Of a stretch of DNA of 64,000 bases, positions 27,716 through 37,109 are shown piece after piece (position 1 is the first letter of the stretch; the number at the start of each line of letters is the position of its first letter). The notes under the pieces were generated by a model. The model did no database searches, was not told the DNA's origin, and worked only from the letters and a program-made list of their open reading frames with translations. The position numbers and the translations under genes are program-made. This DNA comes from Acidobacteriota bacterium (lineage in GTDB: Bacteria; Acidobacteriota; Terriglobia; Terriglobales; Acidobacteriaceae), in contig JABCZH010000001.1 in the NCBI GenBank assembly GCA_013289795.1, forward strand, positions 310,001-374,000. Reading direction: 5' to 3'.

Positions 27716-30205
27716 TTAATTCGCCGATGCCAGCACGTCATCGTAATAGTTGACGAAAAGACGATGGGGCTTGTCCTTCAATCCCTTCAACGGGATCTTC
27801 TGTTCAATGCTGGTGTTTCCCGTCAATCGTGCGCGGCCCAGAAAACGCACGCTGCCATCCGCCAACTCGATATAGAGCGGTACCAGCATGCGGAAGTTCG
27901 CGTCCACGTTGCTCTGAGTCAACTTGAAGGCAAACTCCATGTCACCAGCAGCGTTGTTATCGATTGAACTTTGCATATTGTAGCTGGGCAGCTGCGTGCC
28001 GTAAACGGACTCGTCGAAGAACCAATCCATTTTTCCTCCGCCGAACCCCGCCATCTCCGGAGTCATGTGTTTCTCCACCATGGCCTTGAAGTCTTCCGTG
28101 GTGGCAGCGCGCCCGGCGTAGGTCTTCACGAAATCCTGCATCGTCGCCTTGAAATTCTGATCTCCGGTCTGCTTATCCCACATCATCATGCGCACCATGT
28201 GCAGAATGTAGGCGCCCTTGGGATAGATCAGGTCACGGGTAAGGTTCATTCCCGTGCGGCTGTTGTCGAGCCGGTATCCCAGCGTCACGGGGCCGGCGTC
28301 GATGGCGCGATACCCTTGCGGGTCTTTCATGGTCAGCAACTCGCGCTCATCGTTCCAGAAATCGATGAACTTCTTCGGATTCTTCTCCACCACTTGCAGG
28401 AACAAAGAGGCCGACATGTCCGCGAAGCCCTCGCTCATCCATTGATCGCGATAGGAATTGAACCCCACCACATTTCCCCACCACTGGTGGGCGACCTCGT
28501 GGGGAGCTACAGTCTTCCAATAGCCGCGATCACCACGATCCAGCCCGAGTTGGTGGCGCACTGTATTGTCATAAAACGAGCAGATCGGCAGCCAGACCAG
28601 CGTCGGCCAGGACTGTCCGACGCCACAGGCAGTTTGCTGCGTCATCGCCAGCCGCTTAAAGGGAATTGGGCCGAAGTAATCGGTGTAGAGCTCCATCGAG
28701 ATCTCCCCATCGGCCAGCGCTTTCTTCTGCATCGGAGTGGTATTCATGTTGCCCAGCGCGACCTCGGCCCGTCCGCCAATGTAATCGTGTGTCACTTCGA
28801 GGTTATCCTCGCCATTCGCCTCGTGCTGCAGGTTCTTCACCCATAACGGCGGTTCCTTGTTGGCATAGGATTGCACCACGTAATCGGGCTTAGTGATCTT
28901 GGCCTCCTGCACATTGAAGTTGCCGAAATTGAAGCCGGCCACGGTTTGTGGCACCTCGCTTTTCCAAACTGAAGTGGTGTGGTCACCTTCACTGCTCTCC
29001 CTGACCAGGCTCCCTGTCGCCGTGATTTTCATTCCCTTTGGAATGTGGAAGGTCAGGTCGTAGTTGGTGAATCCCCCAAAGGCCTGGCTGGGATTGTTGG
29101 GATACCAGCTATCGCGCGCCCCAGGAGCAGGAAAGTAGTTGCCGTTGCCTTCGTTCCAGACGGCGTCCTTACCGCCATACGAGGTCACTATGGTGAGCTT
29201 CTCGCCAGTTGCCAGCGGGCTGGGCAAAATCACCGAGAAGAACTTCGCGTCTTCATCCTTCCCCTGTTGAATGAAGGAGAGTGGCTGCCCGTTCTCAGTG
29301 GTAACACTCTGCACCCGCAGCGTTGGATAAAGTTCAAAGGGCACCACTTTCAACCCGTTCACCTGGGAAACGAACGCTGTGGTTGCCTTGCCAACGAGAT
29401 TGGCATTCTTTTCGAGAGTAGTGTCGAGCTGTTGGTGCTCAATGCGTATCAAGCCATTATTCTGCGAACCCGAAGCCGTATCCTGCTTGTATTCGTTCGA
29501 CAGGTGAAAGGCCGCCCACACTCCCATCTTCTTATCGTCGTAGGTGAGCAATTCAACTTCTTCCGGAGCTACGGGGAACAGCAGAGGCGGGGCACCGTGA
29601 GGATCAATCGCGTACACTTCCTTGTCACTATAGCGCTGGCCGTGAATGAAGGCCACAAACAGGCCGCCCGGCGCGGTCCCGCTGACGTCCTGCAAGATGC
29701 GGGCATCGAGATTAAACCGCAGTGCAAGATTGTGGCGTAAAGCGTTTTGGCTGTTGTGTAGCAGGTCGGCGTCGCAGGACGCAGTGGCCGCGCCGCCAAC
29801 TTTCTTGATTTCTTCGTAGGTCTTGTCAGTGAAACGCATCACCAACTGGGTGAACTTTTCGCTGAATTCGTTTTCTTTGGTTAGGAGTTTCAGGGTGCCG
29901 CGCTCGATGGCCAGCGGCGGGTCGAGCACCATGTTGCCTTCTCCGACAAACACTGCGCCCGTGACCTTGCCCTCGATCGCAGAGACGAAACACACATTGC
30001 CCGAGGTCAGATGAAACGTCGCGGCATCGCGCTTGAGCGTGAAGTCCTTTACCGAGACCGCCTCGCTGCCCAGCCCAATGTTGCGCAGTTGCTGATAGGT
30101 CGGGTCAGAGTTCGGGGCGGAAGGCGAAGTCTGGGCGAAGAGACCGGCGGCGGAGAACAATATCGTTGCGAGGCAAAAGGGCAAAAAGCGCGATGAAGAT
30201 GGCAT
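27716..30205 (-). CDS. Secreted M1-family metallopeptidase
   Basis: From ATG 30205 (AGGAGA upstream) the protein has a signal peptide ending SAAGLFAQ and about 829 residues. The zinc site HEVAHQWWGN is followed after 18 residues by the third ligand Glu in WMSEGFADMSAS. The usual GAMEN substrate-anchoring motif is replaced by CGVGQSWPTLVWLP, so it belongs to a divergent M1 group and aminopeptidase activity is not certain. An extended beta-rich N-terminal half precedes the catalytic domain, and it ends in a C-terminal beta domain. It is convergent with the small secreted-protein gene and shares its terminator. Confidence 0.88.
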   Translation of the reverse strand: MPSSSRFLPFCLATILFSAAGLFAQTSPSAPNSDPTYQQLRNIGLGSEAVSVKDFTLKRDAATFHLTSGNVCFVSAIEGKVTGAVFVGEGNMVLDPPLAIERGTLKLLTKENEFSEKFTQLVMRFTDKTYEEIKKVGGAATASCDADLLHNSQNALRHNLALRFNLDARILQDVSGTAPGGLFVAFIHGQRYSDKEVYAIDPHGAPPLLFPVAPEEVELLTYDDKKMGVWAAFHLSNEYKQDTASGSQNNGLIRIEHQQLDTTLEKNANLVGKATTAFVSQVNGLKVVPFELYPTLRVQSVTTENGQPLSFIQQGKDEDAKFFSVILPSPLATGEKLTIVTSYGGKDAVWNEGNGNYFPAPGARDSWYPNNPSQAFGGFTNYDLTFHIPKGMKITATGSLVRESSEGDHTTSVWKSEVPQTVAGFNFGNFNVQEAKITKPDYVVQSYANKEPPLWVKNLQHEANGEDNLEVTHDYIGGRAEVALGNMNTTPMQKKALADGEISMELYTDYFGPIPFKRLAMTQQTACGVGQSWPTLVWLPICSFYDNTVRHQLGLDRGDRGYWKTVAPHEVAHQWWGNVVGFNSYRDQWMSEGFADMSASLFLQVVEKNPKKFIDFWNDERELLTMKDPQGYRAIDAGPVTLGYRLDNSRTGMNLTRDLIYPKGAYILHMVRMMMWDKQTGDQNFKATMQDFVKTYAGRAATTEDFKAMVEKHMTPEMAGFGGGKMDWFFDESVYGTQLPSYNMQSSIDNNAAGDMEFAFKLTQSNVDANFRMLVPLYIELADGSVRFLGRARLTGNTSIEQKIPLKGLKDKPHRLFVNYYDDVLASAN

Positions 30206-30403
30206 GGAATCTCCTGGCGATCTGTGGAGCCCCTGGGAAGAAGAACGTGCCATTATCCACGGCGGACGGAAAAAAACAAGGACTTTTAGAGGTATAGGCG
30301 AAAATCCGTGCTTGAAAGAGTCTTAACCTAGTGTGCCCCGCCTCGGCGAGGCGCCTGCCGGTAGATTTTGTTTCAGTGTGCCTCGTGAGCCTCGAGTGTC
30401 TGC

Positions 30404-31591
<1,188 letters not shown>

Positions 31592-31636
31592 AATAACCTC
31601 TGTGTCTGGGATTTCGTGGGATTGTGAACTGCAGGA

Positions 31637-31699
31637 CTACCGGCAACAGCAACAACAGCGGCGGGTGTGACAGGTGGCATTCATGGGGAAGCGGTCCAT
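31637..31699 (-). CDS. Putative cysteine-sensing leader peptide (20 residues, five consecutive Cys)
   Basis: Begins ATG at 31699, directly after the CysO stop codon (TAG then ATG), with GGAGG ten bases upstream inside the carrier gene. The peptide starts MDRFPMNAT and ends CHTRRCCCCCR: six Cys in 20 residues, five consecutive just before the last residue. An internal ATG at 31684 would give a 15-residue form. The stop at 31637 is 45 bp before the moeZ-like start. A Cys run at the end of a tiny ORF inside a cysteine-synthesis operon is the design of an attenuation leader. No strong hairpin-plus-T-run follows, so the mechanism, if real, could be coupling or Rho-dependent. Confidence 0.6.
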   Translation of the reverse strand: MDRFPMNATCHTRRCCCCCR

Positions 31700-31978
31700 C
31701 TAGCTGCGGCCTCCAGCGATCGAAGGCACTATCGAAATGTTATCACCATCCTTGATGGCAGTTGCTTCCTTTTGCAGGTAGCGAACGTCATCGTCGTTGA
31801 GGTAAACATTCACAAAGGAACGCAGTTTACCTTCCTCGGTATAGAGATGGCGGCGCAGGTCGGGGTGCCTGGCGGTCAAGTCGGACAAGGCATCGCCCAC
31901 TGTACCGCCCTTCACCTGGACGTCCGCCTGTTTTGCTGTGTATTGGCGTAGGGGCGTCGGAATGTGGATTTTAGTCAT
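31700..31978 (-). CDS. cysO: CysO-like sulfur-carrier protein (ThiS/MoaD fold)
   Basis: The 92-residue ubiquitin-like fold has FVNVYLNDDDVRYLQKEATAIKDGDNISIVPSIAGG, characteristic of MoaD/ThiS/CysO carriers. In active carriers the chain ends Gly-Gly; here two more residues (Arg-Ser) follow, so the C-terminus must be trimmed before it can be adenylated. The adjacent JAMM protease is the obvious trimming candidate, as for the QbsE and HcyS carriers. The thiocarboxylate would donate sulfur to the O-phosphoserine-type cysteine synthase encoded upstream. Confidence 0.88.
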   Translation of the reverse strand: MTKIHIPTPLRQYTAKQADVQVKGGTVGDALSDLTARHPDLRRHLYTEEGKLRSFVNVYLNDDDVRYLQKEATAIKDGDNISIVPSIAGGRS

Positions 31979-32011
31979 ACACCTAGTTGATGCCCGCGCC
32001 AGCCATAGGAT

Positions 32012-32461
32012 TCAGGTGCGCCCCATAAACAAGTCGATTTCGACTTCCTCATCCACCAGCTTCTTGCCGTTCTCCTCACTGCCGGTCAGCTCGAACGAAT
32101 TGGTCGTTACCGCTCTGCCTTTTTCCACACTGGTAATCACGTACGAACAGCCGAACCAGTGCGCCTCGGCCAAATCCGTCGGTGACCAGCGTGCAGGATG
32201 GTCCGGATGCGAGTGGTAGAACCCGACAATGTCCTCACCCCGCTCTCGCCCTCCGCGCTGAATGCGAATCAACTCTTTGGGGTCGATGTTGTACCGGTTC
32301 TGCGGCGAGTCTTTCCGGGTGTTTCCGCAACGCGCGACCGAAGTCACCACCCGAACGTCGCCGTTCACCTGACCCAACAGCACTCCGCAGGACTCGTAAG
32401 GATACGTTGCCTCGCCGTGTCGGCGGAGGGAATCGTAATTTGATCGGCTAATCCTCAGCAT
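32012..32461 (-). CDS. mec: JAMM-type metalloprotease (Mec-like)
   Basis: A compact 149-residue JAB/MPN protease with the full metal motif: the upstream Glu in YPYESCGVLLG, then HSHPDHPARWSPTD (His-x-His, then Ser and Asp). In mycobacteria Mec releases cysteine from CysO-cysteine; in other systems JAMM proteases trim residues after the carrier Gly-Gly. Here both jobs are plausible, because the neighbouring carrier ends GGRS. It is 33 bp before the carrier gene on the same strand. Confidence 0.9.
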   Translation of the reverse strand: MLRISRSNYDSLRRHGEATYPYESCGVLLGQVNGDVRVVTSVARCGNTRKDSPQNRYNIDPKELIRIQRGGRERGEDIVGFYHSHPDHPARWSPTDLAEAHWFGCSYVITSVEKGRAVTTNSFELTGSEENGKKLVDEEVEIDLFMGRT

Positions 32462-32475
32462 GAGTTACTTCTTCG

Positions 32476-32545
32476 CCACAGAGGACACAGAGGTACACAG
32501 AAAACCGCGAGTCCTCTGTGATCTCTGTGTCCTCTGTGGTAAAGA
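32476..32545. repeat. CTCTGTG-family inverted repeat between mec and cysM
   Basis: Arms 32476-32492 and 32523-32539 are perfectly complementary over 17 bases (CCACAGAGGACACAGAG with its complement). The 30-base loop contains another CCTCTGTG word. It is the only full palindrome of the CTCTGTG family in the window and lies within the cysteine operon, where it could form a hairpin in the mRNA. Confidence 0.75.
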
Positions 32546-32546
32546 C

Positions 32547-33515
32547 TTACCCCTCTTCCCAAAACCTCTCACTTAAATACTTATCCCCAGAATCCGGCAG
32601 GATGGCCACCATAACGGCCTGCTCATTCTTCTTAAGTTGCCGAGCGACTTGCAAACAGCCCACGATTGCCCCGGCGGAAGACACTCCTACCAGCAGGCCC
32701 TCTTCCCGCGCCAGTCGCCGGGCCATGGCGTAGGCGTCTTCGGTCGAGATCCCGAGGTCTTCGTCGGCCAACGACGCATCGTAAATCCTCGGCACAATCG
32801 CGCTGGCCATGTGCTTGGTGCCTTCAATGCCGTGGAACGCGGAATCCGGCTGCAGAGAAACGCAGCGCACTCGCGGGTTCAACTCTTTCAGGCGGCGGGC
32901 CGTGCCCATGAAAGTTCCGCTGGTGCCCAGCATAGCTACGAAGTGCGTGATACGTCCTTCGGTTTGTTGCCAGATTTCGTTAGCCGTGCCATGGTAGTGT
33001 GCCTGCCAGTTGGCGTCGTTGGAATACTGGTCGGCATAGAAGTACAGATCGGGCCGCTCGGCAGCAAGTTGGCGCGCCTTACGAATGGCGCCATCCGAAC
33101 CGTCTGCTGGGTCCGTATAAATAATGTTGGCGCCGTAGGCGTGCAGAATGCGTTTGCGCTCCACGGAAACATTTTCCGGCATGCAGAGCGTCACTGGAAA
33201 ACCCTGGGCGGCAGCGATCATGGCATAGGCAATGCCGGTGTTGCCGCTGGTCGAATCGAGCAGAATTTTACCGGATGTTAACTTGCCAGCAGCGCGGGCT
33301 TGGGCCACGATGTTGACGGCGGCGCGGTCTTTGACCGAGCCTCCGGGATTGAGCCACTCCGCCTTGCCGAGGATTTCAGCTGCGGGCAAGTCGCGGGAGA
33401 TACGCGCCAGCCGCAAGAGCGGGGTGTTGCCAATCCGCTCCAAACTGCTCTGGCCGAGAGCTGTATGCTCACGGGAGACAGACACTTGCGCCAACTTTGA
33501 CGGTGCTTTTTGCAT
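32547..33515 (-). CDS. cysM: Cysteine synthase, CysM/O-phosphoserine type
   Basis: A PLP beta-replacement enzyme of 322 residues. The PLP Lys is in NPGGSVKDRAA, the phosphate-binding loop in STSGNTGIAYA, and the C-terminal Ser in GVSSAGAIVG. The synteny with a sulfur carrier, JAMM protease and MoeZ-like activator matches mycobacterial CysM, which uses O-phosphoserine and carrier thiocarboxylate rather than O-acetylserine and sulfide; the substrate is inferred from this context. It is first in the minus-strand run and its promoter should lie in 33516-33684. Confidence 0.88.
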   Translation of the reverse strand: MQKAPSKLAQVSVSREHTALGQSSLERIGNTPLLRLARISRDLPAAEILGKAEWLNPGGSVKDRAAVNIVAQARAAGKLTSGKILLDSTSGNTGIAYAMIAAAQGFPVTLCMPENVSVERKRILHAYGANIIYTDPADGSDGAIRKARQLAAERPDLYFYADQYSNDANWQAHYHGTANEIWQQTEGRITHFVAMLGTSGTFMGTARRLKELNPRVRCVSLQPDSAFHGIEGTKHMASAIVPRIYDASLADEDLGISTEDAYAMARRLAREEGLLVGVSSAGAIVGCLQVARQLKKNEQAVMVAILPDSGDKYLSERFWEEG

Positions 33516-33684
33516 GCAATGCGAACTTTACCTTCGTGACCTACGTAACCCTGGTTAGACGCGAAACCACGCACGTAGACTGGGGAATTAGATTATAAGG
33601 AAGGTGGATTGGTTCCACAGAAGATGCGCGCTGGTTCCCTTTACCGGGAATGCGCATCTAACCAAAAGAAGAACGAAGGAAGAA

Positions 33685-34167
33685 ATGCTAACCAAGACAG
33701 AACCTCGGACCTATGACGAAGCCTTGAACTGGCTGCGTGAGCATGGTTTTGACCTAATCGAAGCTCCCGGCACACAGGGACGCGTGTTCCTGAAAAAGTA
33801 CAACGTCTCGGCTGCCATCCAGAAAGACGGCGCCGACGGTGTTAAGATTTTTGCCTATCCCGGATGCATGATTGGAAGCGAGATCTCCAAGCTGGTAAAC
33901 CGCGGATACCAGCAGTTTCTGAAAACCTCGAAGAACGAAATCGCCGCCACGGCCGACCATCTGAAAGCCCTGCAGCAATTCACCGAAGAACTGAAGGAAT
34001 GCCTCGGCCTGCCCAGCCTGTACAACGAATCGTTGGGCACGGTCAGCGAATCCTACCATTACGATCGCATTGAGAACCGCGACAAACCTGCTCCCGAACG
34101 CCCCAAACGACCTTGGGAAAAAGCCGGAATACCGCTGGCCGCCGTGGCTAAGAAGAGCCCGGCGTAG
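33685..34167 (+). CDS. Conserved protein of unknown function
   Basis: ATG 33685 has AAGGAAG six bases upstream, giving a 160-residue soluble protein. The N-terminal 80 residues look like a small alpha-beta fold (ALNWLREHGFDLIEAPGTQGRVFLKKYNVSAAIQKDGADGVKIFAYPG). A helical part follows (LKALQQFTEELKECLGL) and a basic Pro-rich tail. I do not recognise the family. It diverges from cysM. Confidence 0.65.
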   Translation: MLTKTEPRTYDEALNWLREHGFDLIEAPGTQGRVFLKKYNVSAAIQKDGADGVKIFAYPGCMIGSEISKLVNRGYQQFLKTSKNEIAATADHLKALQQFTEELKECLGLPSLYNESLGTVSESYHYDRIENRDKPAPERPKRPWEKAGIPLAAVAKKSPA

Positions 34168-36149: not shown

Positions 36150-37109
36150 TTGCCTCTGCGCGAAAAGTCGATCATCGAGCGAGTGCGCTCGCGTGCAAAG
36201 CGCCGCGCCCCTATCCGCGTTGGCATCGGCGACGACTGCGCCGCCCTGCGAATCCCCCCCGGACACGAAGCGCTCGTGACCACGGATTTCAGCCTTGAAG
36301 GGGTTCATTTCCGGCGCGAGTGGCACGCTCCCGAAGTTGTCGGCCATCGCTGCCTTACCCGCGGACTGAGCGACATTGCCGCCATGGGAGGCCGGCCCAT
36401 TGCCGCGTTTCTGTCCTTGGCCTTGCCGCGAAACCTGCCGCAACACTGGGTTGACCGGTTTTTCGACGGCCTGTTGCACCAAGCCGATGCGTTTCAGATG
36501 AACCTCGCTGGCGGCGACGTTGCCCAGTCCCCTGGCGGGATCCTCGCTAATATCGTCGTTGTCGGGTCCAGTCCTAGGGGTAAGGCCGTACTGCGCTCGG
36601 GCGCTAAACCCGGCGATCGCATCTACGTGACTGGCGCGCTCGGCGGATCCGCGGCGGCGTTGAAAGTACTCTTTTCGGGCCGTAGACTTCATCCCGCTGA
36701 CTTCCCTCAGCACTTTTGCCCACGGCCCCGTATCGCCGTCGGAGAGTTCCTTCGCAAGAGGCGCCTGGCTTCCGCCATGCTTGACATCAGCGACGGCCTC
36801 TCCACCGACCTCGCTCACATTTGTCAAGAAAGTGGAGTTGGGGCTGAGGTTCGTGCAGAGGCCATACCCCTCGCCTCCGTCGGCAGGCCCGCCCACGAAG
36901 TTGAGCTTAAGTCCGCCCTGCACGGAGGCGAAGATTACGAACTGCTCTTCACGGCTGCGCGCAGCAAGCAGGTACCGCGGCACATCGCCGGCGTTCCAGT
37001 AACCCAGATCGGCCATATTACCCGGGGAAAACACGTCATTCTGATGAACGAAAAAGGCATGGGGTTTGAGCTTCGTCCCGAGGGTTGGGAGCATTTCAAA
37101 CCTCGCTAG
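36150..37109 (+). CDS. thiL: Thiamine-monophosphate kinase
   Basis: ThiL phosphorylates thiamine monophosphate to the diphosphate cofactor. The PurM-like fold is shown by RVGIGDDCAALRIPPG, LVTTDFSLEGVHFRREW, GLSDIAAMGGRPIAAFLSLALP and, later, LDISDGLSTDLAHI and HGGEDYELLFTA. The 319 residues are normal. The start is TTG 36150 by frame and homology; no strong Shine-Dalgarno is visible. No other thiamine gene is nearby and no TPP riboswitch consensus was seen upstream. The stop is followed at once by an ACGACC-word repeat. Confidence 0.93.
   Translation: MPLREKSIIERVRSRAKRRAPIRVGIGDDCAALRIPPGHEALVTTDFSLEGVHFRREWHAPEVVGHRCLTRGLSDIAAMGGRPIAAFLSLALPRNLPQHWVDRFFDGLLHQADAFQMNLAGGDVAQSPGGILANIVVVGSSPRGKAVLRSGAKPGDRIYVTGALGGSAAALKVLFSGRRLHPADFPQHFCPRPRIAVGEFLRKRRLASAMLDISDGLSTDLAHICQESGVGAEVRAEAIPLASVGRPAHEVELKSALHGGEDYELLFTAARSKQVPRHIAGVPVTQIGHITRGKHVILMNEKGMGFELRPEGWEHFKPR

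Follow-up and report, generated by a model that had tools for sequence, protein, structure and literature searches.

Short leader ORFs with clustered Cys codons have been described in Actinobacteria in the available passages of PMC1262725, PMC4633059, PMC9094748, PMC9031893 and PMC13236596, and the mention of such actinobacterial leaders in the initial annotation of the present locus is confirmed by the passages of the first two. The leaders of PMC1262725, as described there, are similar to the leader reported here in being short ORFs with a Cys run near the stop, located before genes of Cys metabolism and having no conserved terminator hairpin, but they differ in belonging to Actinobacteria, in lying at the head of the operon and in having cys operons and cbs as their targets, and no gene-tail form occurs in these passages. 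For Cys leaders lacking a hairpin, the same passages (2005) suggest a Rho-dependent, tna-like step, which was called a weak prediction by the authors, and name tnaC, from the tna operon in E. coli, as a model. In mycobacteria, the Cys run of leaderless poly-Cys ORFs senses the Cys supply via the speed of elongation and thereby controls the downstream gene, according to the passages available of PMC9031893, PMC9094748 and PMC13236596. Our leader is proposed to resemble these sensors. The mycobacterial poly-Cys short ORFs of Canestrari et al. (2020) are reportedly leaderless first ORFs in which the ribosome-binding site is sequestered, whereas the ORF of the present locus follows cysO inside an operon, as judged from gene order, and no hairpin was supported across the set of related loci. 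As to tnaC, the leader ribosome stalls, a Rho site lies beside the leader stop and there is no terminator hairpin, the signal being free Trp sensed via the nascent peptide and not tRNA charge; in the present leader, the Rho step is only proposed. Another related case precedes cysA2, a sulfurtransferase gene. The Cys-rich uORF before cysA2 (Rv0815) likewise has a C-terminal Cys cluster, is kept in mycobacteria and shows ribosome occupancy in M. smegmatis, as stated in the passages of PMC4633059 available, but it belongs to another gene and another phylum.

As in these systems, the leader reported here is a short ORF with clustered Cys near its stop, just upstream of a sulfur gene and at a position kept in relatives, the features by which poly-Cys leaders are recognized. 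Cys-codon leaders as a kind are thus already known from Actinobacteria, and what appears to be new is their occurrence in Acidobacteriota in an operon-internal form after cysO; a literature search on Cys leaders, leader peptides and attenuation in Acidobacteria found no treatment of such a leader in the passages retrieved.

The window analysed, a stretch of 64,000 nt from an Acidobacteriota bacterium, contains on the minus strand an operon in the order cysM-like, mec-like, cysO-like, leader and moeZ-like, the four genes being taken from the ORF list. The first gene (bp 32547–33515) encodes a cysM-like O-(phospho)serine sulfhydrylase matching the NCBIfam model TIGR01138 (cysM) with 360 bits, short of the curated cut-off (394), and TIGR01136 (cysKM) above the cut-off; it is followed by a mec-like JAMM protease gene (bp 32012–32461), whose top NCBIfam match, NF041370 (desampylase, E 7.8e-26), was below the cut-off, and a gene for a cysO-like sulfur carrier with the C-terminus IAGGRS (bp 31700–31978), which matched NF041918 (SAMP1) and TIGR01687 (moaD_arch), each barely above the cut-off. 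The last gene (bp 30404–31591), the proposed target of control, encodes a moeZ-like adenylyltransferase/sulfurtransferase whose matches to NF005646 (559 bits) and NF005902 (521 bits) did not reach the equivalog cut-offs of these models, while NF006444 and NF004281 matched above the cut-off. In mycobacteria, MoeZR passes sulfur to CysO, according to the abstract of PMC3227635. Neighbouring ORFs of the operon were noticed at bp 27716–30253, downstream of moeZ, and at bp 36150–37109. By the look of their sequences, they are likely an M1-type aminopeptidase gene and thiL, respectively.

The leader ORF (bp 31637–31699, minus strand), which has counterparts in relatives, encodes MDRFPMNATCHTRRCCCCCR followed by TAG. 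Its sequence agrees exactly with what the initial annotation had read, namely an ORF from 31699 to 31637 with its ATG directly after the cysO stop (TAG, 31702–31700) and its own stop 45 nt before moeZ, a GGAGG ten bases before this ATG (31714–31710) and, at the end of the ORF, five Cys codons, TGT TGT TGC TGT TGC (31657–31643), which constitute the proposed sensor. The GGAGG, a possible Shine-Dalgarno sequence of the leader, lies within the CysO Gly-Gly codons GGA GGC. The spacer between the leader stop and the moeZ ATG at 31591 is 45 nt long (bp 31592–31636) and contains GAGG as the moeZ Shine-Dalgarno site (bp 31597–31600), a motif present in 23 of 28 aligned loci, with variants in the remaining five. 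A terminator scan of bp 31500–33750 detected a single terminator-like site, at 33618–33604 and not above the shuffle level, and none from 31592 to 31639; together with the lack of an RNAalifold consensus structure in the leader, this bears out the earlier observation that no obvious terminator hairpin follows the Cys run. Rfam gave no match above the gathering score in the window and a single one, a tRNA, in 20 loci, and NCBIfam gave no match for seven leader peptides at E values up to 10, such short peptides being hard for profiles.

For comparison of the cysO-moeZ junctions, a MoeZ query was used against 61 genomes (our own and 60 relatives; 58 of the 61 gave matches) and 80 named contigs, most of them metagenome-assembled, with loci picked by MoeZ similarity. 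The contig titles were all of Acidobacteriota except one (L102, PLCG01000078.1), which is titled Thaumarchaeota archaeon, probably by a binning error; its MoeZ is 84 percent identical to an acidobacterial one. Once duplicates, gaps longer than 320 nt and loci lacking an adjacent cysO had been dropped, 98 distinct junctions remained, and a run was scored when an ORF ending between the CysO Gly-Gly and moeZ had at least three Cys in its last 12 codons. At least three, four and five Cys were found in 42, 36 and 26 junctions, respectively, with a highest count of nine, vs means of 3.65, 0.385 and 0.025 (maxima 9, 3 and 1) in 200 dinucleotide shuffles; the 42 include one locus (L108) that looks like chance. 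For the same three thresholds, the controls gave 1) 2, 0 and 0 of 98 in the reverse complement, 2) 2, 0 and 0 of 97 in windows upstream of cysO, 3) 3, 1 and 0 of 96 in windows starting from moeZ +1300, and 4) 5, 0 and 0 of 530 in other upstream windows. As shuffles, reverse complement and neighbouring windows gave so few, the Cys run is specific to the cysO-moeZ junction. Two Cys were present in 11 further junctions, and one or none in the other 45.

The stop of the Cys ORF was located 37–64 nt before moeZ in 31 of the 42 junctions; the run formed part of a separate short ORF in 32 and of a C-terminal CysO tail in ten. The frame relative to cysO was free, being 0, +1 and +2 in 8, 12 and 11 of 31 separate ORFs. 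On a MoeZ tree quickly built from 99 rows, the run appeared or disappeared at least 20 times, with two-Cys loci scored as absent, and the separate and fused forms were exchanged at least five times. By these changes on the tree, together with the 45 junctions without a run and the 11 with two Cys only, the leader is dispensable. The initial annotation had held that loss of the run in related genomes would refute a sensor, and 42 of the 98 junctions keep the run; in the comparison of junctions that it proposed, the Cys codons and the position before moeZ were maintained, and the spacer varied, as did the frame and much of the peptide. In 13 hand-picked close pairs, the last 16 codons had changes of 0.194 at third positions vs 0.180 at positions 1 and 2 (nearly the 0.207 of the spacer), and with no third-position excess, nothing in these pairs points to peptide conservation other than of Cys and stop; this comparison does not itself indicate that the leader is coding. 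It was also noticed that a linker (LRIVEL and similar) belongs to a separate ORF in L063, L065 and L067 but to CysO in L066, so that the frame differs between these relatives, and that L077, L079, L089 and L097, with spacers of 80–123 nt, share similar stretches such as CCACTAAGGGCACTAAGGTACACGAAGG between the Cys ORF and moeZ, perhaps an inserted repeat.

Codon choice within the run was distinctive. TGT made up 146 of 200 leader Cys codons in 38 loci vs 44 of 153 in 45 non-overlapping, mechanically called ORFs of the window, and 143 of 194 in the leaders vs 39 of 368 in moeZ and cysO when 37 loci were compared; the TGT share was higher in the leader than in moeZ in 38 of 38 loci, although the kinship of the loci means that the counts are not independent of one another. 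There is no general drift to T, since the non-Cys leader codons keep 72 percent G or C at the third position (GC3 0.72). As the Cys codons favour the less used TGT and their neighbours keep normal usage, selection on decoding and not on the peptide appears likely, and the preference fits a sensor adjusted to slow decoding, or else an avoidance of mRNA structure. Signs of translation were also seen at both ends of the ORF. In 14 of 31 separate ORFs, a start codon (ATG or GTG) in frame with the Cys run was located between −4 and +5 relative to the cysO stop, in forms such as TAGATG, ATGA, GTGA, TAATG and near ones, vs 2 of 31 for the two remaining frames combined, and the other 17 ORFs begin elsewhere or with TTG; within one clade, the start is swapped between ATG and TTG at one place. 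In 35 of 38, the last Cys was located 0–2 codons ahead of the stop, which was TAG, TGA or TAA. GGAGG at the Gly-Gly codons was found in 21 of 32 separate leaders and also in 18 of 36 junctions without a run, and is therefore not special to leaders. The analyses of Shine-Dalgarno pairing, opening energy, moeZ and cysO codons, and TGT and starts omit L108, L039, L045, L047 and L051; L098 was added to the opening-energy and the TGT and start analyses, and three loci with spacers longer than 80 nt were further omitted from the pairing and opening-energy analyses.

Locus L098 separates moeZ from cysO. Here, moeZ follows an unrelated gene, and a leader, MDCGMTHCRMSCPRCCCCQ, ends 36 nt upstream of it; mec and a close cysO homologue share one contig elsewhere in this genome, the CysO ends in GGR, and no Cys run was found in the 260 nt read after this cysO. 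The arrangement points to the Cys run belonging with moeZ and not with cysO. A TATAAT is located at the leader ATG in L098, from which the leader may be transcribed nearly leaderless; a promoter scan of the locus reported no site.

In the ten fused loci, the run lies at the end of CysO past the Gly-Gly, as in L015 (...AGGGCRCLGGCCCCPR) and L066 (...CCCPACCC); mec is upstream in the stretch read for nine of them, and in the tenth (L094) it is found on the same contig at a distance of about 6 kb. Carriers of the CysO family need a free Gly-Gly, so the Cys tails would need trimming, a step plausibly carried out by Mec. That a hairpin-free sensor of codon charge moves freely between a separate leader ORF and a disposable CysO tail trimmed by the JAMM protease is a rather doubtful proposition. 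Cys tails on CysO were also found in a sister family of the same order (L045, L047, L051 and, on a short contig, L053), 76–137 nt from moeZ. In L031, L043, L044, L046, L047 and L059 of this sister family, the CysO tails past the Gly-Gly finish in Arg-Cys before the stop, possibly a reduced form of the Cys run.

To see how widely such runs occur, loci outside the junction set were inspected. Among 32 of them, a few of which end at or near the moeZ start, at least three Cys upstream of moeZ were present in L053 and L098. A phylum-wide draw of 99 genomes, 49 of them matching, yielded 26 new loci from the best matches, of which three (L225, L227 and L245) carried, in the 250 nt upstream of moeZ, a single ORF end with at least four Cys. 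Of these three, L227 duplicates L039, and L245 was rejected because its sequence (CQTAELCECVCE) is not a run. Four loci of this draw (L220, L221, L222 and L226) belong to the family of the window and are without a run. The run is common yet not universal in the window's family of soil Acidobacteriota, and it was rare in the loci read from other Acidobacteriota.

Within our own genome, TGYTGYTGYTGY matched 66 sites, and the DNA read for 55 of these contained 44 distinct runs of at least four TGY codons. Six of the 44 sit in short ORFs (at most 60 aa) with no more than five codons after the run, and among these, for the 55 of 66 sites read, only the leader ORF is followed by an ORF of at least 100 aa whose start is no more than 150 nt downstream; of the remaining five, four overlap with longer ORFs. 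This genome has another short ATG ORF, L178 (G000:C8, near 221808), with four Cys near its end (MHWRSSLAGKVEQSQGCTDECCCCQHLS) and with neither an overlying long ORF nor one beginning within 150 nt downstream. Other leaders of this kind were also sought with a sequence-only profile (R1) in 61 genomes, where it matched in at least 59, at noise level; in the 30 loci read, taking for each the most Cys-rich end of a plus-strand ORF, no further leader was recognised. This negative result is weak, since R1 scored the window's own copy at only E 0.13. The sole convincing gene at leader distance among the 30 was the moeZ of G028 (L195), and L199, with ten Cys in 12 codons, was rejected for lying opposite a 519-codon ORF.

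Given the conservation, the linkage to moeZ in L098 and the TGT preference, it is likely that the leader acts in cis as a sensor of Cys-tRNA charge controlling moeZ, as the initial annotation had suspected; the sequences back this by conservation, position, frame independence, codon choice and linkage to moeZ, and from them we infer translation, stalling, the direction of the effect and the Rho step. Ribosomes finishing cysO would resume translation at the abutting start codon, on a short leader that ends in Cys codons, mostly UGU. With well-charged Cys-tRNA, they would pass, terminate and leave the mRNA; with Cys-tRNA in short supply, the Cys codons would hold them up, about 45–100 nt before the moeZ start in most relatives, and the pause would shift MoeZ output, most likely upward, because MoeZ is needed to load sulfur onto CysO. 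Since neither a terminator nor a set-wide hairpin over the ribosome-binding site was found, a tna-like step is favoured, in which the paused ribosome would shield an unstructured, C-rich and G-poor stretch from Rho. As a whole, this sensor with a tna-like effector is in our judgement the probable explanation, the part assigned to Rho being tentative and given less than an even chance. Spacers behind a Cys run had C in excess of G in 37 of 38 cases (mean skew 0.224), vs 21 of 27 (skew 0.085) in spacers lacking one (p 0.0025, with no correction for kinship); the latter, when taken at full length, had the excess in 14 of 27, and the regions upstream of cysO in 46 of 86 (skew 0.083). The C-over-G excess and the presence of rho in our own genome fit a Rho-dependent step weakly. 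A typical rut site is longer than the spacer between leader and moeZ, which counts against Rho, and the excess may only reflect an open initiation region.

The main and close rival to the Rho step is translational coupling, in which ribosomes arriving via cysO and the leader feed moeZ, so that a stall at Cys would cut the flow and lower moeZ, an effect of opposite sign; in a variant, the paused ribosome would act by queueing or local unwinding, and the two together are, although a close alternative, unlikely. Coupling would account for the leader starts abutting or overlapping the cysO stop in 14 of 31 and for a moeZ initiation region more open than in shuffles (7.80 vs 8.72 kcal/mol, p 5e-4), but the 45–60 nt from leader stop to moeZ start are long for reinitiation, moeZ carries GAGG or a variant of its own in the aligned loci, the moeZ of L098 has no cysO feeding in, and reducing a Cys-making gene during Cys shortage makes little sense. 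A stall could also act through a hairpin sequestering the moeZ Shine-Dalgarno site unless a ribosome is held on the Cys codons, and translation attenuation is reported for Cys genes of M. smegmatis in the passages available of PMC13236596. The window's own copy (L002) is predicted to fold in this way, the moeZ site pairing with the Cys ORF at 0.75 vs 0.35 in shuffles and a stall opening it by 0.22 vs 0.06, as do L006, L061, L081, L084 and L106. Over 34 loci, however, this pairing was at the shuffle level (0.263 vs 0.257, p 0.51), the relief by a ribosome stalled at the first Cys was not above shuffles (35 loci, p 0.23), a terminating ribosome gave less relief than in shuffles (p 0.006), the mean opening cost was below that of shuffles, in L002 as well (5.0 vs 7.87), and RNAalifold on 28 loci gave no leader structure (−0.8 kcal/mol). 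By these predictions, the hairpin is unsupported across the set, and we regard it as improbable, its standing raised slightly because the window's own copy pairs the moeZ site with the Cys ORF and could possibly form one.

Readings without a codon sensor fare worse. If the product were a functional Cys-rich micropeptide or CysO tail binding metal or thiol, recurrent Cys, often in CPxC spacing, the ten loci with the run as a CysO tail and the Arg-Cys ends of several sister-family tails would be understandable; such a role is very unlikely, as a synonymous TGT choice cannot matter to a peptide, much of which varies, the run of L098 goes with moeZ and not with cysO, and the position before moeZ is similar among loci. 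We find it hardly credible that the run is due to chance or is an untranslated nucleotide motif: the TGT-rich strings are similar at the nucleotide level (alignment A1) and the third-position excess is absent in close pairs, but against these stand the shuffle, reverse-complement and neighbouring-window controls, the in-frame stop within two codons of the last Cys in 35 of 38, the in-frame abutting starts and the exchange of ATG and TTG at one place in one clade.

The natural frame changes, the fused form and the relocated moeZ make these leaders well suited to the study of attenuation that needs no hairpin, and with the UGU preference it can be tested directly whether the sensitivity of such a sensor depends on synonymous codons. 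If the proposed reading is true, charge sensing by Cys codons would not be confined to Actinobacteria and would operate in the carrier-protein route to cysteine, and in the tail form a carrier gene for cysteine synthesis would hold its own cysteine gauge within its coding sequence.
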